Of a DNA stretch of 64,000 nt, positions 1-39,417 are shown piece after piece. The stretch comes from Pseudomonas sp. JQ170C (GTDB taxonomy: Bacteria > Pseudomonadota > Gammaproteobacteria > Pseudomonadales > Pseudomonadaceae), in NCBI RefSeq assembly GCF_035581345.1, contig NZ_CP141608.1, positions 2,076,501-2,140,500 on the forward strand. The letters run 5' to 3'. Within the stretch, counting starts at the first letter, position 1, and every line of letters begins with the position of its first letter. The translations under genes and the position numbers were made by a program. The notes under the pieces are model-generated. The model made no database searches and was not told where the DNA came from. It saw nothing but the letters and a program-made list of their open reading frames with translations.

Positions 1-799
1 TGATCAGATACGGATTGCAGACACAGCGTTCTTTTCGCTGCTGCAATAGGCGTTTTAGAAGCAGTCCCAGCCCGTTTATCTGGCCACTTGATTCTAATTG
101 AATCCGCAGTTTCTTAGATGTCTTGCCCTGAGCCACCTGGAGGTGGCCATCTACGCAATCGGTTGCACGCATCGAGAGCACATCAGTCGGGCGCTGCCCT
201 GTCAGGTATGCCAGATCCATCGCGTCTCGTAACTCGGATGCAGCCCAACGATAGACCGCATCCCAGATCTCTGGTCCGGCATAGAAGTCACGCGGCCGCT
301 CCTTATTCTTCCGCACCCCGGCGGCAGGGTTCTCCATTTTAGTGATGCCCCATTCCCGCGCCAAGTTGTAGATGTGTGAGAGAAGGGATATCTCACGGTT
401 AGCGCGAACCTTGCCCGATCGTTTGTCCCTGTACTGGGCAATAATCTGTGGTGTGATGGCATCAATCGGGGCCTCACTGAATGCTGCCCTGAGTTGCCTC
501 AGCGAGAGCAGGTTGTCCTTCTGGGTCCTGGGCATCTTGCTGGGAATCACATCACGCTCATATCGATTGAAGACATCTCCAAGAAAGCGAACAGTCTTGG
601 GTACGGCTTTGCGATCAAGCCTCGCCCATTCCATTTTGGCAACGTCTAGGTCGGTACCCAGAGGGATTTCAATCCGCTTGCCGTTCTCATCGCGGCCGTC
701 ATAGTAGTAGCCGACCCACTGGGCCCCGCTTTTAAGATTGCGAACCCGCCGCAGCATTCGCGGCGGGAGGTCACGGTTTACTGCTTTCTTGATACGCAT
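1..799 (-). CDS. int: Prophage tyrosine-recombinase integrase (3' end outside window)
   Basis: The reading frame is open from an ATG at 799 to the window edge, giving 266 residues of a phage integrase. Residues 20-65 look like an N-terminal arm-binding domain (WVGYYYDGRDENGKRIEIPLG), about 70-160 like the SAM-like core-binding domain, and the catalytic domain follows with the first catalytic arginine in TGQRPTDVL (about R203). The remaining His/Arg/Tyr residues lie beyond the window. It is the last gene of the leftward early operon and lies at the prophage edge, as expected for an integrase beside attL. The matching attR is the tRNA-Ser fragment near 38.7 kb. Family assignment is firm; the completeness of the gene cannot be judged. 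Confidence 0.92.
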   Translation of the reverse strand, partial: MRIKKAVNRDLPPRMLRRVRNLKSGAQWVGYYYDGRDENGKRIEIPLGTDLDVAKMEWARLDRKAVPKTVRFLGDVFNRYERDVIPSKMPRTQKDNLLSLRQLRAAFSEAPIDAITPQIIAQYRDKRSGKVRANREISLLSHIYNLAREWGITKMENPAAGVRKNKERPRDFYAGPEIWDAVYRWAASELRDAMDLAYLTGQRPTDVLSMRATDCVDGHLQVAQGKTSKKLRIQLESSGQINGLGLLLKRLLQQRKERCVCNPYLI

Positions 800-802
800 C
801 GT

Positions 803-30913: not shown

Positions 30914-31483
30914 ATGGCTATCAATACGCAGCAATTGCTGCAGATCCTCCCTAACGCCGGCCGCAATGCCGGCGTTTTTGTTCCTGGGCTGAATGCCGCG
31001 ATGGGCAAGTACGCCATCATCACTCGTCTGCGCATGGCCGCGTTCATCGCCCAGATTGGTCACGAATCTGGCCAGTTGCGTTACGTCCGAGAGTTGGGGG
31101 GCGATGCCTACCTATCCAAGTACGACACCGGCAGCTTGGCCAAGCGCCTGGGCAACAGCCCCGAGGCCGATGGCGATGGCCAGAAGTATCGCGGCCGGGG
31201 ATTGATTCAGATCACCGGCCACGACAACTACGAAGCCTGCAGCGAAGCGCTGTTCGGCGATAGTCGATTGCTCAACACCCCTGAGCTGCTTGAACAGCCC
31301 GTCTATGCGTTGCTGTCTGCCGGCTGGTACTGGCAGCGGGCAGGACTCAATAGCCTCGCGGACAAGGTGCTGCGGGCCGATGACTCGGTGTTCGAGCTGA
31401 TCACCCGCCGTATCAATGGTGGCCTGAATGGGTTGAAGGATCGCCAGGCGCTCTACAAGCGGGCGCTTGAGGTGTTGCAGTAA
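30914..31483 (+). CDS. GH19 chitinase-like endolysin
   Basis: This encodes 189 residues from the ATG at 30914, with GGAGA upstream. GH19 features are visible: AAFIAQIGHESGQLRYVRE with the catalytic glutamate (E51), and YRGRGLIQITGHDNY. The enzyme cleaves peptidoglycan at lysis. There is no signal peptide, so export depends on the holin. It overlaps the Rz-like gene by one base. Confidence 0.92.
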   Translation: MAINTQQLLQILPNAGRNAGVFVPGLNAAMGKYAIITRLRMAAFIAQIGHESGQLRYVRELGGDAYLSKYDTGSLAKRLGNSPEADGDGQKYRGRGLIQITGHDNYEACSEALFGDSRLLNTPELLEQPVYALLSAGWYWQRAGLNSLADKVLRADDSVFELITRRINGGLNGLKDRQALYKRALEVLQ

Positions 31484-32037
31484 TGCCGCTGAATTGGCGT
31501 ATCGCACTTCTGGCTGTGGCGGTCGGGCTCTATGCCGGCGGGCGTGTGGCTTGGGTGTGGCAGGCCTGCGAGTACGGAAAGCAGTTGGCTGAACAGGCTG
31601 CAGGTTATGTCCAGCAGCTGGCGGACAGAGATCGGGCTCACGGTCGTGAGCGTGAGGAAGCTGCAGCTGCAGCCTTGGAGCAGTTGGCAGCGCAGAAAAG
31701 CCAGCGACAAGCCCTGGAGGATCGCCTGCAGGAACAGGGCAAAACCCATTGGAAGGAAATGAACGATGCACAACAGACTCAAGCTCGCCTGCGTGACAGG
31801 CTGGCTACTGCTGACTTGCGGCTGTCAGTCCTTGTCGACGCCGGAGCCTTTGCCGCCCAGGGTTGTGACGGTGGGATGCGAGAAGCCGCCGGCACCGCAG
31901 GCGTGGTTCATGGAGCCGTTCGCGCCCGACTTGACCCAGCGCATGCTCAACGAATTTTCGGCATCACCGACGACGGTGATCGAGGACTGATCGCTCTGAA
32001 GGCCTGCCAGGCCTACGTTCGCGAAGTCGCCAAATGA
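31483..32037 (+). CDS. Rz-like inner-membrane spanin
   Basis: This encodes 184 residues with an N-terminal membrane anchor (WRIALLAVAVGLYAGGRVAW) and a long periplasmic coiled coil (AAAAALEQLAAQKSQRQALE). It fits the i-spanin family. The o-spanin gene is nested in it in another frame. Together they fuse inner and outer membranes at the last step of lysis. Confidence 0.82.
   Translation: MPLNWRIALLAVAVGLYAGGRVAWVWQACEYGKQLAEQAAGYVQQLADRDRAHGREREEAAAAALEQLAAQKSQRQALEDRLQEQGKTHWKEMNDAQQTQARLRDRLATADLRLSVLVDAGAFAAQGCDGGMREAAGTAGVVHGAVRARLDPAHAQRIFGITDDGDRGLIALKACQAYVREVAK
31766..31990 (+). CDS. Rz1-like outer-membrane spanin lipoprotein, nested in Rz
   Basis: This encodes 74 residues in the +1 frame of the Rz-like gene. 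The N-terminus has a lipoprotein signal (LACVTGWLLLTCGCQS), with lipidation at C18 or C20, and a proline-rich mature part (STPEPLPPRVV). The ATG has AAGGAAATGAACG upstream. Complete nesting matches lambda Rz/Rz1. Confidence 0.83.
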   Translation: MHNRLKLACVTGWLLLTCGCQSLSTPEPLPPRVVTVGCEKPPAPQAWFMEPFAPDLTQRMLNEFSASPTTVIED

Positions 32038-32187: not shown

Positions 32188-33174
32188 TTATTTATTAAGC
32201 TCTATTGTTTGGGTGATGTCTCCATTTTTATCTTTCATAACTAGCTGCCCTGAGCATTGCTGAAGTAGTTTCTGGTATGCGGGCGTAGATACTGGAGCAT
32301 GGAATGGCATTTCTCCATTTTTTTGCTGTGTAAGTGTTTCTTCAATTGCGTCGACATGCCAGCACCGCCCGAGCGCAGTTTGGGCAAGTTTCGTGTCTCC
32401 GATCACGCCGGAGTATATTCCAAGAAGCTTGAATGCTCTCTCAGTACCGTGTGTCATCGAGCTTGTATCGAGTCCGGCGAGGGCACTTAGATCTCCATCG
32501 GCGAAGCGCCTGGCGGCTGCGGAAGCTTCACGGTTTGGAAACTTAACAACCTCTTTGTCCTCTGAAATTAAGACTGGCGCTCCAGACATGCCAGGCCTTG
32601 AAAGCGAATCCAGCAATATGACTCTATCCGCTAATCGATACGACGGTTCAGTGGCTATGCTGGCTCGCTTCCAAACTGGAAGATAATAAGGAGTAGATTG
32701 CCCGAAAGCCTCCGTCAATTCGACATGGCTGAAAGGATAGCCTAATATGAAGGCATCCTTACCAACCGCTTCGTCAATTTCAGATTCTGCAAATTTTTCG
32801 ATTTCAAAAATATGAAAATGATCTTGTATAGAATCGGGTAGAGGATAAACGGCTATATCGACTTTCCCTCCCATATTGTGCTCAAGCCATATTGGATTCA
32901 TTTCTGGGTCGTATAGCGGGCAGGTGATTTCTGATAATGTATTTTTTTTGCTCACGGCAGTAATTTTTAAGAGGTGCGGAGGTGGTAGTTCGCCTATCAT
33001 CTCAGGCTTAGATGGATCTATTCCACTGAATATGTGCCAGTTTGTGACGAGAAATAGCTCTCCATTTTTCCTTGTGAAAAATCCAGTTCCGTATCCCCTA
33101 GGTATAAGCTCATCGGTTGCTGCATTGACAAAGGACGTTTGCAGGTACGTGGTGGCTGCCGAAAGTTTGTTCAT
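32188..33174 (-). CDS. Trypsin-like serine peptidase, prophage accessory gene
   Basis: This encodes 328 residues without a signal peptide. The trypsin-like triad is visible: H47 in TNWHIFSG, D106 in GKVDIAVYPL and S197 in SRPGMSGAPV. About 100 further residues follow the peptidase fold. The gene is lower in GC than the phage structural genes, transcribed against them, and lies just after the lysis genes, a common place for lysogenic-conversion genes. Cytoplasmic trypsin-like peptidases occur in some anti-phage systems, but no partner gene identifies a known system here. Confidence 0.82.
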   Translation of the reverse strand: MNKLSAATTYLQTSFVNAATDELIPRGYGTGFFTRKNGELFLVTNWHIFSGIDPSKPEMIGELPPPHLLKITAVSKKNTLSEITCPLYDPEMNPIWLEHNMGGKVDIAVYPLPDSIQDHFHIFEIEKFAESEIDEAVGKDAFILGYPFSHVELTEAFGQSTPYYLPVWKRASIATEPSYRLADRVILLDSLSRPGMSGAPVLISEDKEVVKFPNREASAAARRFADGDLSALAGLDTSSMTHGTERAFKLLGIYSGVIGDTKLAQTALGRCWHVDAIEETLTQQKNGEMPFHAPVSTPAYQKLLQQCSGQLVMKDKNGDITQTIELNK

Positions 33175-33374
33175 TATTCAATTTTCGCCTGAATTTTGTT
33201 AGTGGGTTTTTCGCACGAACTGCGAGGATAGCGGTGTTGCTTCGTTGCGAGCAACGTCCATGTTCAGGCGAAGCGGTCGCCCATCAAGAATGATTGTGGT
33301 TACTGTGAAGTCGCCCGATACTGTGTGCATAGACAGTAAAAGCCAAGCGAATAAGTTGGAAAAGTTGAGTTAGA

Positions 33375-33494
33375 TTTAGGGCAGAATTGGGGCCGCATGA
33401 AGCCGTAATGAGCCTTTTTGTTCTAGGTGACGAGCAGAGTTTTCGGGCTTGATACGGCCTGCCGCGAAATGCGGGCGAGTTCAAATCCCTATCC
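33375..33494. repeat. Att-like direct repeat, left copy
   Basis: The segment has TTTAGGGCAGA followed about 95 bases later by GTTCAAATCCCTATCC. The same two elements recur in the same order and orientation, 98 bases apart, at 36964-37083. The first element translates as an integrase-like C-terminus (LDLGQNWGRMKP then stop); the second resembles a tRNA T-arm. It reads like a decayed attachment site. The flanking 33175-33374 has no gene. Confidence 0.6.
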
Positions 33495-33556
33495 TTGGGC
33501 CAGGCCAGCTGTCTTGGGAGCGCTGAGTGATATTACTCAAGCAGATGGTAGTCGTC

Positions 33557-33922
33557 TTACCTTTGGGTCAGGCGTAGCGCCTCGGCAGTGGTCAGATCGA
33601 AAACCCACTCAAACCAATTGTCGATTGGCACAATGTTCCGGTGCGGCCAGATAGCCCTGAAGAATAGGCCGTGAGCGACTTTCTCCACTTGAGCATTGAT
33701 GGGTGCTACTCGGTCCTTAGCCCAGTGCGGTCGCCAACCCCAGCGCACCAGGTCTGCATGTAGCACGCCATCCTGCATGTTCAACACGGCTACTTGAGTA
33801 GTTGGAGCGACGTTGTAACGATCTAACGGCTGCTCGCCGGCGCTGTTGGCCAGCGGGCAACTCATACTTAAGGCATCCACAAAGTCGTGGATACCCCGGT
33901 ACTGGCTCAGTCTTCCGCACAT
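33557..33922 (-). pseudogene. Truncated SRAP/HMCES-family gene
   Basis: The frame starts MCGRLSQY with the catalytic Cys2 and continues with the family segments YNVAPTTQVAVL, RWGWRPHWAKD and NIVPIDNWFEWV. The homology ends near residue 107 and is followed by 14 unrelated residues to a stop. Complete SRAP proteins have about 200-230 residues, so roughly half, including the catalytic HIS region, is missing. The break lies about 100 bases from the att-like repeat. SRAP proteins crosslink to abasic sites in single-stranded DNA. The start overlaps the gene before it. Confidence 0.8.
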
Positions 33923-34635
33923 CCCGGTTCTCCCAGGTCATCTGGTACGAATCCCTGCCCACCGCAGACCTCACAATCTTCGCGTTGAGCGAACGAATCA
34001 CAGCACGCCGGGCAACACTTGAACGGCGAGTATCTCACCCGATCCCGCAGGATCCGGTACCGCACCCAATCATTACCCTCGAACGCTTCCTGCGCCAGGT
34101 CCACCAGCACCCGATAGGCGTCAGGATCTCCAACACCCTCGAGCATTTTTCCGTCGATCATCCGTGCCGTTTCGATTAGACGAAAGGTTTTACCGTCCTG
34201 CCCTAAAATGAGTAGACCTTTGATCACGCCAAGCTCGCCGGAAGTACGCAGCACAATTCGGAGCTGGTCACGCTCTTGAGTCACCATCCCATCGAAACTG
34301 AAGGCGTCAGTGCGATTCTCTTCATAGTAGTTACCCTGTTTGATGTATCCCACGCGAGAACGGCCACCTTCGGGCACTACGTTGTAGCTGGATGCTCGGC
34401 AGTACAGCTCCTGGGCAAACTGCTCTTCCAGTCCGGCAGTGTAAGCCGCCTGTACCTGCTCTCTCAGGTCGTGTAGTTCCAGCGGGTCGAACAGGCCAAG
34501 GGCGTCTAGGTCTTCGGTAGTTGACCTCATGATTTGCAGGTACACCTCAGGATTGCTCAGCCTCAAATGTTCATTGCGCAGCATTCCGTGCCAGTGCGCC
34601 AAGGCCTCTGGTTTGGTATGTGAGTGCTTGCTCAT
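33907..34635 (-). CDS. Hypothetical zinc-ribbon protein
   Basis: This encodes 242 residues. A helical N-terminal half (LHDLREQVQAAYTAGLEEQF) is followed by a beta-rich middle (FSFDGMVTQERDQLRIVLRT). The C-terminus has two CxxC pairs (CCPACC and CEVCGG), like a DnaJ-type zinc ribbon. It is located between the HTH gene and the SRAP fragment on the same strand and probably in one operon. Function is unknown. Confidence 0.72.
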   Translation of the reverse strand: MSKHSHTKPEALAHWHGMLRNEHLRLSNPEVYLQIMRSTTEDLDALGLFDPLELHDLREQVQAAYTAGLEEQFAQELYCRASSYNVVPEGGRSRVGYIKQGNYYEENRTDAFSFDGMVTQERDQLRIVLRTSGELGVIKGLLILGQDGKTFRLIETARMIDGKMLEGVGDPDAYRVLVDLAQEAFEGNDWVRYRILRDRVRYSPFKCCPACCDSFAQREDCEVCGGQGFVPDDLGEPGCAED

Positions 34636-34655
34636 TAGGTGGGGGCACTAGGCGA

Positions 34656-35018
34656 TCATTCGACTAAATGAAAGTCATGCCTGGTGCTGGGGTCCGGAGT
34701 CGCCCCGCGCAGGTTATCTGCGATCATCGGCTTTTGGCCGGGGAAGAAGATCAGGGCCTCTTTTTCAAATGCAAACGAAAGTGCTTGTATCGTTACGGGG
34801 CGAAGCTGACGGGCCCGGGACTCAAAGTCTCTGATAGCTTTGATGGAGACGCCTGCGCGAAAGGCTAGAGCTTCGACAGACCATCCAAGTAGTTCGCGGG
34901 CCTGTAGGCAGTGATCCTGATCAAAGGCTATTGGGAAGGCTTCTGGCGTCAGGCACAGCTCTTGATTCGCTTGCTTTCGGCTTCGAGCCTGGTCTAAATC
35001 GAAAAGCTCTGCTGTCAC
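34656..35018 (-). CDS. HTH-domain regulator, SOS-controlled
   Basis: This encodes 120 residues from a GTG at 35018, which has GAGG eight bases upstream. A longer frame would run through the LexA box, so the GTG is preferred. Residues about 38-105 form an XRE-type helix-turn-helix (LQARELLGWSVEALAFRAG, SIKAIRDFES). It is the first gene of the leftward group with the zinc-ribbon and SRAP-fragment genes. Confidence 0.72.
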   Translation of the reverse strand: MTAELFDLDQARSRKQANQELCLTPEAFPIAFDQDHCLQARELLGWSVEALAFRAGVSIKAIRDFESRARQLRPVTIQALSFAFEKEALIFFPGQKPMIADNLRGATPDPSTRHDFHLVE

Positions 35019-35033
35019 TTTTGCATCCTCGTT

Positions 35034-35053
35034 TTCTGTATGTATATACAGTA
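35034..35053. promoter_or_regulatory. LexA (SOS) box
   Basis: CTGTATGTATATACAG at 35036-35051 has the full CTGT-N8-ACAG symmetry of gammaproteobacterial LexA sites, with an AT alternating centre. It lies about 18 bases upstream of the GTG of the HTH gene, so the operon would be induced by DNA damage. Confidence 0.82.
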
Positions 35054-35091
35054 TTCGAGGCGCGATGATTTTGGCTAGTCCCCAATCGTCA

Positions 35092-35113
35092 CATGGGGCA
35101 TAAATGGGGCAAA
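35092..35113. repeat. Paired 11-bp repeat resembling att arm sites
   Basis: ATGGGGCATAA and ATGGGGCAAAC stand side by side with an 11-bp period. A similar pair, CTTAGGGCAAA then TTTAGGGCAGA, lies at 36953-36974 in the right att-like repeat. They may be arm-type integrase binding sites or the decayed end of an integrase gene. Confidence 0.4.
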
Positions 35114-35169
35114 CCATACGCCAATCTATGCCAAGCGATGCCAACTTATGCACGTTTGCGTTTATGCAA

Positions 35170-35211
35170 AAAAGCGCCGGCTCCCTTGTTCTGTGGGGCT
35201 TCGGCGCTTTT
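35170..35211. terminator. Bidirectional terminator hairpin
   Basis: A perfect 10-bp stem AAAAGCGCCG/CGGCGCTTTT with a 22-base loop gives A/T tracts on both sides. It separates the LexA-controlled operon from the 3' end of the HEPN-like gene. Confidence 0.68.
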
Positions 35212-35265
35212 GCGTGTTAATACTCCAGCACAATTGGAGTGTGTAATAGTCGAATCAAAGCGGAC

Positions 35266-36693
35266 TCATGACCAGGTCAGATAACCAGCTGTTAGCTGCT
35301 TAAACCTGCTGTCTAGTGGTGCTTTGCCGTTACCTGGAAGGTGTGTCAGGAGAAAGTCGATGCACTCCTGAAGGCGCTGATTGACCACGCCGGCTTTGAT
35401 TTTTTCCAGCGCTTTGCAGGCTTGTTTACGGCAAAGCTCGTCACTAAGTTTAACCTGGATTTCAAAGCTCGTGAGTGCTGCTAGTGCAGTAGGCGCCCAT
35501 TGGTCACCTAGCAAACCTAGAAGTTTATCGTAATAAATTGCACCTCTTGGGGAAACTCCGCTGCAATATGGCCGGCCGTTACCGATTCGACAAATCAGGA
35601 AAACCTTAATCAGCTTGGGTGCGAAATTCGCAAGAATGTCCTGCTGATTGTGTATGTAAGACATTATGTCGTCAGCTACTGGGGCTTCGTGGTGGAAGTT
35701 GTCCCAAGCATTATGTTTTTCTAGTAACGAGTCTATCAGTCCATCTACGATAATCGCTCGCTCAGCACCTGAGCGGAATGCATTACCATTAACGGCTTGG
35801 AGAAACTGAACGCCAAGCTCGTATTTGTCTTTGTGGAGGTTAGTGTTGTAACCCTCGAGAGTTAACCCAAGGCGATATTTGAAATCCTCATTGCTAGCTT
35901 GCCAGACAGGAACTGAAAGGAGGGAAATATTCTTCCTGACTTGTGGGTCCGTATCTGCGGCTACATAGATCCCAAACATAGTTCTGAGGATGTTCCCGCA
36001 GTGATGAGACGCGAGCTCATTTATTTTGCTAGTAATGCTGGCAAGGTAAGCTGCGTCTAGAGGCTGCGTGTATGTGCGGAGATTCTGGATAAAAGCCTGG
36101 ACCTGCAGTGCGGACTCAGTTGGTCGATCCTTCAGCACATCTTTGATGCAGTTTGTAAGCCACGCTAAAAGCTCGTAAGCGTTAATTGTGTAGTTTGTTG
36201 GGTGGGATATCCCAATATCGTTGCGCATGTCGAGCATGTGCTTGAGTTTTTTTGTTGTTGTCTCACTAATCAGTTCAAGCTTTCGGCATGTATCCAGAAG
36301 AGTTGCGTCTTTTACTGCGCGAAGGTCGTCTTCCGTTTGATAAAACTCCCTGTTTTTTCCTCCGATTGCCGCGTCGTAAAAGATGTCGAGCCCATAAGCT
36401 ATTACTTTCTTGTGTAAGTCTAGAACGACTTCGTTCCAAATCGCATTGAGGGAGTAGTCAAAAAGTCCAAATCCTGCGCCTACAACAAATTTTGAAAGGT
36501 ATCTAGCACCTTGTTTGGCATCATGAGGGAGTGATTCAATCAATGCCGGTAATGCCTGCCCAATAATTGCCCTTTCCTCTTGGGAGGCAATGATATTTTC
36601 ATGCGGCAAGCCAATGGCTTGCAGCAGCTCAACGACCATCTGCGCTTGTGGGTCAACTAACTGCATTTGTGGCTTGGGGACTAGACTGCTCAT
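35266..36693 (-). CDS. Putative HEPN-domain protein, defence candidate
   Basis: This encodes 475 residues from the ATG at 36693 (GGATCC upstream). A short glycine/phenylalanine-rich stretch (VVGAGFGLFDYSLNAIW) precedes a helical domain with LKHMLDMRNDIGISHPTNY, an R157-x6-H164 pattern typical of HEPN ribonucleases. The C-terminal 250 residues are helical and unrecognised. GC content and codon use are clearly lower than in the phage structural genes. It may act as an RNase-type abortive infection factor; only the Rx6H motif supports this. Confidence 0.72.
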   Translation of the reverse strand: MSSLVPKPQMQLVDPQAQMVVELLQAIGLPHENIIASQEERAIIGQALPALIESLPHDAKQGARYLSKFVVGAGFGLFDYSLNAIWNEVVLDLHKKVIAYGLDIFYDAAIGGKNREFYQTEDDLRAVKDATLLDTCRKLELISETTTKKLKHMLDMRNDIGISHPTNYTINAYELLAWLTNCIKDVLKDRPTESALQVQAFIQNLRTYTQPLDAAYLASITSKINELASHHCGNILRTMFGIYVAADTDPQVRKNISLLSVPVWQASNEDFKYRLGLTLEGYNTNLHKDKYELGVQFLQAVNGNAFRSGAERAIIVDGLIDSLLEKHNAWDNFHHEAPVADDIMSYIHNQQDILANFAPKLIKVFLICRIGNGRPYCSGVSPRGAIYYDKLLGLLGDQWAPTALAALTSFEIQVKLSDELCRKQACKALEKIKAGVVNQRLQECIDFLLTHLPGNGKAPLDSRFKQLTAGYLTWS

Positions 36694-36952
36694 AGTGGAT
36701 CCGTTCCTATCTGCAATACGATTTTGGGGCCTGGGTCTCGATGACAGAGCTAGAGCCTGTGGGGCCGAGTGAGCCAACCTGAAGCCTATCCGTGTCAGGG
36801 TCTGAACGCATTGTGCCAGTACAGGTGTGTTCGGGCTATGGAGCCAGCGTGAGTGCATTGCGCTGCCGCTTGTGGGGTGCAGTCGTAAGGCAGTCCAGCG
36901 CGTCAGGCTAGGCCGCACATCAGCGTGTGGTCAGGGCGTTATGCTGAAAATT

Positions 36953-37083
36953 CTTAGGGCAAATTTAGGGCAGATACTGGGCCGCTCAGGGCCGCGGAAG
37001 ACCGAATGTGCGTACTGTGACGCCAGGTTTTGCTGGCCTAAAGCGGCCTAAGGAGGGCGCCGGGCGGGTTCAAATCCCTATCC
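36953..37083. repeat. Att-like direct repeat, right copy
   Basis: TTAGGGCA-type elements (36953-36975) are followed 98 bases later by GTTCAAATCCCTATCC (ending 37083), matching the copy at 33375-33494. The two copies bracket 3.5 kb with the SRAP fragment, zinc-ribbon, HTH and HEPN-like genes. Other sequence from 36694 to 37376 holds no convincing gene. Confidence 0.6.
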
Positions 37084-37376: not shown

Positions 37377-37928
37377 ATGAAGTTTGATTGCGCAAAAATT
37401 ACCGGCAAGCTCGACCATGTTGAGTCTGTCAGTCGTATGGACGGTGGTTTCACTGCTAGTGTAAAAATCGACGGAGCAGTGATTCCAAAACTGAAAATGG
37501 CAAGCAGGATATACGAAGAGCTGAACGTTGGCGAAAATGTTACTCTGTACGGACTCTTTAAAAATAATAAGGATAAAGGGAAAAACGAGGGGATCTTGTA
37601 TGGTCTTAAAAAGGAAAGCGGCGAAAAGATGTTTTCCACCGAATTCCGCTATAAAGTTCCTATGCTCCTCGCTGTAGTTTCCGTGTTCGCTTTTTGCTTT
37701 GTGTTTGTAGCCGGCTGGGCACTATCTGTCCTCCCTGTGAATTACTATATGGGTACCGCTGACGTTATGTACAACACCACCGTGGTGGCTGTTGTAGAAG
37801 CGAGTTTGGCTGCCGCATTTTTCCTATGGCGGGCATGGGTGATGGTTCAAGCCACCGCAGATCCGGAGGCTTGGGAAGTTATGGATGCTGCAACGGTCTC
37901 ATCGCGTTTTAGCAAATTTGATAAGTAA
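37377..37928 (+). CDS. Hypothetical protein with OB-like N-terminus and two membrane segments
   Basis: This encodes 183 residues with AAGGA before the ATG. Residues 1-80 are beta-rich (AKITGKLDHVESVS, NVTLYGLFKNNK), followed by hydrophobic segments at about 97-118 (MLLAVVSVFAFCFVFVAGWA) and 132-155 (TTVVAVVEASLAAAFFLWRA). It is lower in GC than its surroundings and stands alone near the prophage end, fitting a conversion gene. No family is recognised. Confidence 0.68.
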   Translation: MKFDCAKITGKLDHVESVSRMDGGFTASVKIDGAVIPKLKMASRIYEELNVGENVTLYGLFKNNKDKGKNEGILYGLKKESGEKMFSTEFRYKVPMLLAVVSVFAFCFVFVAGWALSVLPVNYYMGTADVMYNTTVVAVVEASLAAAFFLWRAWVMVQATADPEAWEVMDAATVSSRFSKFDK

Positions 37929-38327: not shown

Positions 38328-38525
38328 ATGAAAACCTTAAGCGGACTGATCGAGGCTGGCGAACCGCTGATCCAGCAGGCTATTGATGCATTGCAGCGGT
38401 ACCATGAAACCCAGGAAGCGGGCAGACTGGCAAATGAAGTGGAGCGTTTGCGCCTGGAGGCAGAGTCTCTTTACCACGCCGTTACGGACTACCAGTCCGA
38501 GCCTTGGGATGAGGTTGTTCGATAG
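38328..38525 (+). CDS. Small hypothetical protein (65 aa) at prophage end
   Basis: This encodes 65 residues with AGGGG upstream. The sequence is helical and probably a coiled coil (ALQRYHETQEAGRLANEVER, LRLEAESLYHAV). It is the last gene before attR. Function is unknown. Confidence 0.62.
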   Translation: MKTLSGLIEAGEPLIQQAIDALQRYHETQEAGRLANEVERLRLEAESLYHAVTDYQSEPWDEVVR

Positions 38526-38661: not shown

Positions 38662-38717
38662 CTTGAAAACCGTCGATGGGCAACTATCCTAGAGTTCGAA
38701 TCTCTACGCTTCCGCCA
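38662..38717 (+). other. attR: 3' fragment of tRNA-Ser(UGA)
   Basis: From CTTGAAAACCGTC (anticodon loop with TGA) the sequence follows tRNA-Ser(UGA): a long variable arm, the T-arm TAGAGTTCGAATCTCTA, the acceptor strand CGCTTCC, a G discriminator and CCA at 38715-38717. The 5' half is absent and replaced by unrelated sequence. This is the partial copy left by integration; the intact tRNA gene should lie left of the window beside the integrase. Confidence 0.85.
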
Positions 38718-38722
38718 CTTTC

Positions 38723-38748
38723 AAAGCCCTGATTATTCAGGGCTTTTT
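38723..38748 (+). terminator. Terminator of the tRNA-Ser gene
   Basis: A 10-bp stem AAAGCCCTGA/TCAGGGCTTT with loop TTAT is followed by further Ts. It lies six bases after the CCA end, as expected for the original tRNA gene. Confidence 0.82.
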
Positions 38749-38749
38749 G

Positions 38750-39417
38750 CGTTTCTGGGGTTCTAAAAATAGGGCCTTGGGACCACGGCTGGGACCGCCA
38801 AAAGTTCATCGCTTCCACTTCGTTTTCGAGTCACTTCCAAAACGCTTGATATTGGATGGCTCGGCGCAGTCATGCGGGAGACTGGAAATGTGCTCCAAGC
38901 AGCCACCAGCCTCGCGGGGAGGGCATGATTCCTTGAAGTGGCTATCAGTGATCACCCCAGCACGGGGCAGAAACCAGCAGGGCGATCACTAACTCACCAA
39001 CTATTACCGTTTCGATACTGAAGCACTGCGCTTCTGCCTTCCTCCACTCGCGGTAATCCGCCGAGTGCTCGGCTGCTCACGTCCTCTTCTCGGCCATCGC
39101 CGATACCTCGCAAGCCGCTCGGCGGCAAGTGGATTTGGTGCTGGCGCCGGCCGTGCCGGGCGCGGTTTGAAATGCGTTTCATGTTGTTCTCTGTTGGTTC
39201 CAGACGCACACGACTTCTAAGGCCCTGGTGGCCTGGGTCTCATCGAGCGTCAGTTTGTTGGGAGTAGCGATCCAGCCTGAGGCGGTGGGCGCTGTGGGTG
39301 GCTCAGGGCACCTCCTGATTGGCCTCATATCAGGCATGGAGGTGTCGGCTGAACGGGGTGGAAGTGCCCCCTCGGCCAGACGCGGCAACCGGGGGGCGAT
39401 CCACTGGGATGGCTCAG
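38750..39417. other. Gene-poor chromosomal stretch after attR
   Basis: No convincing gene is present. The first part (38756-38810) reads in one frame LGPRLGPPKV, reminiscent of integrase C-termini seen at old attachment sites. The minus strand near 39179-39280 has a short coding-like segment (NKLTLDETQATRALEVVCVW) with no clear start. It may be debris of earlier insertions at this tRNA. Confidence 0.4.

Follow-up and report, generated by a model that had tools for sequence, protein, structure and literature searches.

Orphan attachment half-sites on both sides of a patchwork of cargo genes at the right end of a Pseudomonas prophage

In the genome of Pseudomonas sp. JQ170C, a stretch of 64,000 nucleotides (NZ_CP141608.1, positions 2,076,501 to 2,140,500; called here the window, with position 1 its first letter) contains the right end of a prophage, where a 3.6-kb block of genes lies between two copies, R1 and R2, of a composite sequence made of an arm and a core; a different element of similar build, T, is found within the block (Table 1). 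Most probably (at about 0.72), R1 and R2 are orphan halves (P-arm and core) of attachment sites of phages that target tRNA-Ser genes, T is a half-site of the same kind for mutS, exchange at the right end of the prophage left them where they are, and the block is a patchwork that does not move by itself.

The composite as a tRNA-Ser attachment half-site

The composite consists of an 11-bp arm (TTTAGGGCAGA), a gap of 93 bp, and a 16-bp core (GTTCAAATCCCTATCC), with R1 and R2 in direct orientation. The letters of the arm are the same at 33375 and 36964, and those of the core at 33479 and 37068. A preliminary description of this DNA had noticed the two direct copies around the genes, and they are present, with identical arm and core; the spacing of 95–98 bp it gave is, on measurement, 93 bp in both. 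The usual two arms are found in R2, and in R1 the first of them is degenerate. The exact core occurs twice in the whole single-contig genome of 5.94 Mb, at R1 and at R2. With up to three mismatches, the core gives 2 matches in the window (0.29 expected, two or more in 5 of 100 shuffles); the arm alone is weak, with 3 matches at one mismatch (0.70 expected, and 3 in 5 of 100 shuffles). The significance is carried by the composite of arm and core rather than by arm or core singly. Over 115 bp each, R1 and R2 present the arm repeats, inner GGCC repeats, and core at the fixed spacing by which we recognize a half-site, and they keep 0.82 and 0.91, respectively, of 22 inner consensus positions (background mean 0.25, maximum 0.59). 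After the core, CTATCCTTGG and CTATCCATTT occur at R1 and R2, where an active attR has CTATCTCTCCGCCA, so that both copies are orphan and not active. The DNA to the right of the R1 core and that to the right of the R2 core also differ from each other.

The exact composite is present in 3 of 398 genomes of the same genus (the present one among them) and in 11 viral stretches, and a relaxed form in 49 of the 398 genomes and 108 viral stretches; a reversed-pattern control gave 0 matches in all rows listed. We classed 132 distinct copies (from loci that include those of the first relaxed scan, of 108 stretches, and 30 of the loci of the genome scan). The length is 115 bp in 113 of the 132, with a range of 112–116 (the search pattern allowed 112–120). 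In 47 copies, what follows is the 3′ end of tRNA-Ser (ATCTCTCCGCCA or a close variant); these are called active (CCGCCA within 20 bases). The other 85, with R1 and R2 among them, join other DNA at the core and are called orphans. CCCTATC is retained before the divergence in 68 of the 85 orphans, which suggests that an integrase may have made the orphan junction.

The contigs G403 and G406 start at such a tRNA-Ser gene with TTAGGGCA-type arms beyond it, and G413 has the same layout at tRNA-Ser(GGA), again with TTAGGGCA-type arms beyond. Because 47 copies run into the tRNA-Ser end and these three contigs carry arms beyond the tRNA, the data support the composite being the P-arm and core half of the attachment site of tRNA-Ser-targeting phages. 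Its first part is a tandem arm-type site (TTAGGGCA...TTAGGGCA), found also across the core in three active-copy phages. That part had previously been taken for an integrase C-terminus, which inspection by eye rejects: none of the 18 loci listed has an integrase-like frame ending at it, and the arms stand on the P′ side as well in the three phages. On the other hand, the likeness of the second part to a tRNA T-arm was seen correctly, the tRNA being tRNA-Ser, and the view of each copy as an old attachment junction is supported in the form of orphan half-sites of tRNA-Ser attachment sites.

The prophage is ~43.8 kb long and ends in a 97-bp repeat of the 3′ part of tRNA-Ser(TGA) with its terminator (95 of 97 positions identical). 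Neither R1 nor R2 can be an end of it, since the tRNA-Ser(TGA) repeat is the end; from the positions of attL and attR, the R1–R2 block lies inside the prophage, between the Rz and protease genes and attR. In this genome, tRNA-Ser(CGA) is single, intact, and unoccupied, and mutS is likewise intact and unoccupied.

Half-sites of this type could also be internal junctions of prophages integrated side by side in the same tRNA gene. Such tandem integration predicts repeated P-arm and core junctions in the same orientation, and R and T do agree in orientation in all 11 examined loci with both (the window included). With a next element in place, however, the core should again be followed by the tRNA 3′ end, and the 85 orphans are by their classing without it. 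In addition, a tRNA-Ser(CGA) gene that goes on with C at that base was not found in 298 genomes with an exact pattern, and the resident tRNA-Ser(CGA) gene is intact and single. We regard tandem integration as very improbable.

The distribution of integrases agrees with the two classes. The comparisons cover 50 of the 102 classed viral loci, hand-picked for a length of at least 26 kb (L152, of 26.6 kb, and loci of unshown length being excluded). With the integrase of G403 as query, its own contig counted, and 57% or more as a close match, a close cognate integrase (57–100% identity) is present in 11 of 16 contigs with active copies vs. 1 of 34 with orphans (Fisher p 1.2e-6). We did not find a close cognate integrase in the present genome, where the best genome-wide match has 26% identity and lies outside this element. 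Integrases of the prophage's own type (55–73%) occur in 6 of the 34 orphan contigs vs. 1 of the 16 contigs with active copies. Four more elements with an own-type integrase hold an orphan inside the right end, 0.2–2.9 kb in. Three of them (G382, G364, and G444) lie between a tRNA-Cys gene, where they start, and a repeat of it. The fourth, G430, is the closest to the window, with tRNA-Ser(TGA) repeats (the intact tRNA is at the right end there and at the left here) and the order SIR2-like gene (by eye), 231-aa SRAP gene, orphan composite, element end.

In Pseudomonas fluorescens Pf-5, according to the available part of PMC2647930, prophages 02 and 06 similarly have different integrase specificities in different tRNA-Ser genes; one site covers the T-loop (60 bp) and the other the anticodon, V-, and T-loops (104 bp), a pair much like the two types found here. 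The Pf-5 sites are at the ends of elements, whereas here orphan half-sites lie inside another prophage, and none is described in that part of the paper. A literature search on remnant attachment sites found no paper, and the matches listed by a search on relic or vestigial att sites were, from what they display, off subject save PMC9345347, on a Vibrio integrative element.

In a search for a common origin of the DNA to the right of orphan cores, a stretch resembling TGACCGCATTCGACCCAAAGC (at least 14 of 21 positions) was seen in 22 of the 85 orphans, 20 of the 22 at +19 to +34. It appears in 0 of 47 active copies, in 0.8% of shuffles, and in 58 of 3991 background pieces.

T as a half-site of the mutS type

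The arm block of T is composed of TGGGGCATAAATGGGGCA, 14 bp, and CTATGCC, and is 39 bp long in 52 of 52 viral contigs. The pair in the window has 0 mismatches; at 3 mismatches there are 3 matches (0.29 expected, 0 of 100 shuffles). To the right of T, the minus strand reads as a MutS-like start, M..SDLSxHTP, in 25 of the 52 copies and contains HTP[IM] in 45 (4 are too short). The resident mutS starts with MSDLSAHTPMMQQYW, and in the window the minus strand at T gives HTPIVLEY, then a stop, then other DNA. From these letters, T reads as a relic half-site of phages integrating at the mutS start.

The preliminary description listed at 35092 a third arm pair, related to the two others. The pair is real; the relation is not, as T belongs to another element, of the mutS type. 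In five loci, T is found 175–439 bp to the right of R, and T could there be the P′ half of the R site. This is ruled out because the 52 viral contigs with T mostly have no R in the examined DNA, and T enters the mutS start in 25 of them. In the 11 loci with both, T is to the right of R in nine.

T can be compared with the mutS–cinA locus of Pseudomonas, which holds prophages or tail clusters (PMC2647930), and with the Vibrio mutS element (PMC5296598), as far as both are covered by the parts of these papers at hand: T is the half-site of mutS-start phages. It differs in lying, as a relic, within a prophage that occupies another site, with the resident mutS intact. In L067, a repressor and a tail-like cluster (by eye) stand to the right of a T copy, which fits the mutS–cinA tail cluster of Pf-5 as presented in that part of PMC2647930.

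Probable exchange at the right end and the question of mobility

The preferred reading, successive exchange at the right end of the prophage, would run as follows. A phage with a tRNA-Ser integrase would leave the R halves when its integration module is replaced; a mutS-type module would come and go, leaving T; and the present tRNA-Ser(TGA) module would arrive last. At each exchange, the old half-site would stay, the prophage would gain beyond it a new end that brings cargo and an attachment site of its own, and illegitimate joins would trim genes. The half-sites with their orphan state, the true ends, and the broken genes are observed; the order and the mechanism of the exchanges we infer. 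A serial build-up of the cargo, proposed before, is likely. Stacked copies are seen in L188 too, where a decayed one lies 2.1 kb to the left of an active one.

Several points weigh against this reading. The exchange steps themselves are inferred and not seen. A close cognate integrase (69%) is present in one orphan contig, G442, and distant cognate matches (27–35%) in six others; a contig may be without an end, and the class comparison covered the cognate and own-type integrases. Above all, orphans should decay, yet 28 of 34 keep at least 0.77 of the 22 inner consensus positions, in a sample chosen without requiring the core (53 arm pairs, one of which, an attL, was dropped before the classes were compared). 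The means over the inner positions are 0.832 and 0.836 for the two classes, with no difference (p 0.49). Most orphans are therefore as conserved as active copies, and either recent orphaning, renewal by exchange with active sites, or a function could be at work. Clear decay (0.64 or less of the inner positions) is seen in 6 of the 34. The cores do drift in orphans: 11 of 33 have 1–4 mismatches and one more is without a core, vs. 0 of 18 in active copies.

A second function of the composite, which could for instance offer common sequence for swapping right-end cargo through homologous exchange or be bound by a phage protein, would account for the conserved orphans. It would also suit the variable cargo on both sides, with its matches to PtuA, AriA, SIR2, and SduA models. 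No protein or exchange event is linked to the composite, however, six of the 34 orphans have decayed, and the composite lies at no fixed distance from the true end (0.2 kb to 5.2 kb); such a function appears improbable to us.

Together with the CCCTATC junctions, the conservation of the orphans also keeps alive, at low probability, the idea that the block is mobile. A non-autonomous cassette could be formed by a circle (core, cargo, P-arm) inserted at a resident core by an integrase acting in trans, with a P-arm and core left on each side. The direct copies on both sides of the block, with arm and core in register, would be expected, as would divergence beginning at the core and orphans that are mostly conserved like active copies. 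Nevertheless, R1 and R2 are followed by different sequences after the core, the block is damaged on its left side, neither a second copy nor an empty version was found in the collections searched, and the genome is without a close cognate integrase. Paired copies are also rare: among the loci examined, two copies occur together here and in L188 only, and L134/L288 and L161/L217 are separate loci on the same contig. We consider this cassette unlikely. With as little probability, orphan composites would be maintained docking sites, where co-resident tRNA-Ser phage integrases move cargo circles that have no integrase, and the R1–R2 block would be one damaged cassette.

Among the four genes and one remnant of the block, no integrase or mobilization gene of its own was matched. 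We did not observe a second copy of the block as a unit in the collections searched; one weaker search with the DNA of the whole block, which scored two candidates per genome, returned mainly SRAP genes. The 475-aa protein of the block was not found in the collections of viral contigs or phages, and six relatives of its gene in genome contigs have no R or T in the examined flank. A relative with a cleanly empty site was likewise not found in the collections searched. With no close cognate integrase, a broken left side, no second copy, and target genes that are intact and unoccupied, a module mobile in its own right is not supported. The block is most likely a patchwork between two relics and not a unit that moves by itself.

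The cargo hotspots of P2-like phages and P4-like satellites, in the accessible part of PMC9122126, also hold variable, partly defensive cargo at one spot. What sets the present spot apart is the conserved orphan half-site that marks it, and the cargo of the present block is without a known defense match. In 49 of 398 genomes of the genus, the variable right ends of many prophages and islands can be recognized by this 115-bp tag, near known and unknown defense genes. Integrase switching becomes readable from sequence, each relic naming a former target. That copies without an integrase are conserved was not expected and is a puzzle that can be tested.

Genes of the block and neighboring cargo

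From R1, the order is HTH (helix–turn–helix) tail, SRAP, 242-aa gene, HTH gene with its box, T, 475-aa gene, and R2. To the right of R1 there are 36 unassigned bp and then the frameshifted HTH tail, into which the 3′ end of the SRAP fragment runs. Pairs of the 242-aa and HTH genes lie directly to the left of the composite in L045 and L046 (other prophage ends), and in L048 an HTH gene is to its right. As these genes and relatives of the 65-aa gene adjoin composites in L045, L046, L048, and G259, the block appears, in gene content, as a patchwork of recurrent right-end cargo of this phage family in a new order.

Table 1. Features of the prophage right end and its ends (window positions unless marked as genome)
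Feature	Position	Strand	Remarks
Prophage's own tyrosine integrase, N-terminal part	1..801	-	355 aa, spans left window edge; other type than the R1/R2 cognate
Rz spanin	31483-32037	+	last phage core gene seen
Trypsin-like protease	32188-33174	-	first right-end cargo gene
R1 composite	33375-33494	+	orphan attachment half-site; arm TTAGGGCA at 33376, core 33479-33494
Frameshifted 3′ tail of second HTH gene (CRGATPDP...DYHLLE)	33531-33600	-	82% over 56 bp vs. end of HTH gene after composite in L048
SRAP fragment	33557-33922	-	PF02586 profile positions 1-110 of 214, 7.9e-21; about half of profile missing
242-aa protein	33907-34635	-	C-terminal CxxC motifs (by eye); no Pfam match
HTH regulator	34656-35018	-	weak match 1.1e-5; GTG start at 35018 proposed, mechanical open reading frame to 35153
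LexA-type box CTGTATGTATATACAG	35036-35051		before HTH gene
T, mutS-type orphan half-site	35094-35243	+	arm block 35094-35132, hairpin, core TTAATACTCCAGCACAATTGGAGTGTG 35217-35243
475-aa HEPN-like protein	35266-36693	-	helical by prediction; many homologues carry the precomputed label PF27235
R2 composite	36964-37083 (36954-37083 with first arm)	+	orphan half-site; arms TTAGGGCA at 36954 and 36965; core 37068-37083
183-aa protein	37377-37928	+	membrane-like by eye, no family
65-aa protein	38328-38525	+	relatives directly after composite in L046 and G259
True attR of prophage	38662-38758	+	97-bp copy of tRNA-Ser(TGA) 3′ part
attL	genome 2071492-2071588		tRNA-Ser(TGA) gene, 4.9 kb left of window

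Among the labels given to these genes before, the SRAP fragment is confirmed and the HTH regulator weakly so; the "zinc ribbon" is without a Pfam match, and the SOS control depends on CTGTATGTATATACAG, which we take to be a LexA-type box and whose bare pattern, CTGT-N8-ACAG, is near chance (2 matches vs. 0.92 expected). A second LexA-type box (CTGTGTGCATAGACAG) occurs at 33321–33336, between the protease gene and R1.

The RNases of the HEPN family have an R-x4-6-H motif in a helical fold. For the 475-aa protein, 839 homologues were obtained among 7998 candidates scored, and in its motif RN...H, residues R157, N158, and H164 are invariant in 22 of 22 aligned homologues. No profile matches over the cut-off, and the structure model is of low confidence (predicted local distance difference test, pLDDT, 61 overall and <50 at the motif). 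The gene is present in 5 of 388 genomes of the genus (the other four at 26–44% identity), with at least 44% in 2 of 388, including the present one.

The "defense-like" character ascribed to the cargo is not borne out, as PADLOC models give no match at 0.01 for the SRAP, 242-aa, 475-aa, or 183-aa protein, and for the HTH protein only Control_protein (1.4e-4) and RmrA (3e-4). Around orphans in general, we compared 60 proteins on the left (longest open reading frame within 2.5 kb of the orphan) and 54 on the right (one of 55 frames excluded) at a threshold of 1e-10. Of the 60 on the left, up to 4 have a match to PtuA models and up to 5 to AriA models; of the 54 on the right, 2 match SIR2 models, 1 SduA, and 1 PD-T7-4. 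These counts are per model and not per protein, and so give no overall total.

The right-end genes of G430, G442, G449, L037, L045, and L046 show recurrent members: SRAP in G430, the pair of HTH and 242-aa genes in L045 and L046, and, by eye, a Dam-type methylase. In L049 (5926–7091), IS3-type transposase genes (by eye) stand directly to the left of an orphan composite. The trypsin-like protease (32188–33174) has a weak match to the candidate defense model PDC-S45 (2.7e-7). Between attL and the integrase, the left arm carries two possibly defensive genes (L003:15385–19643, genome 2071885–2076143): an ATPase with PDC-S20 and QatA model matches and a NACHT-/LRR-type gene, all below NCBI's own cut-offs.

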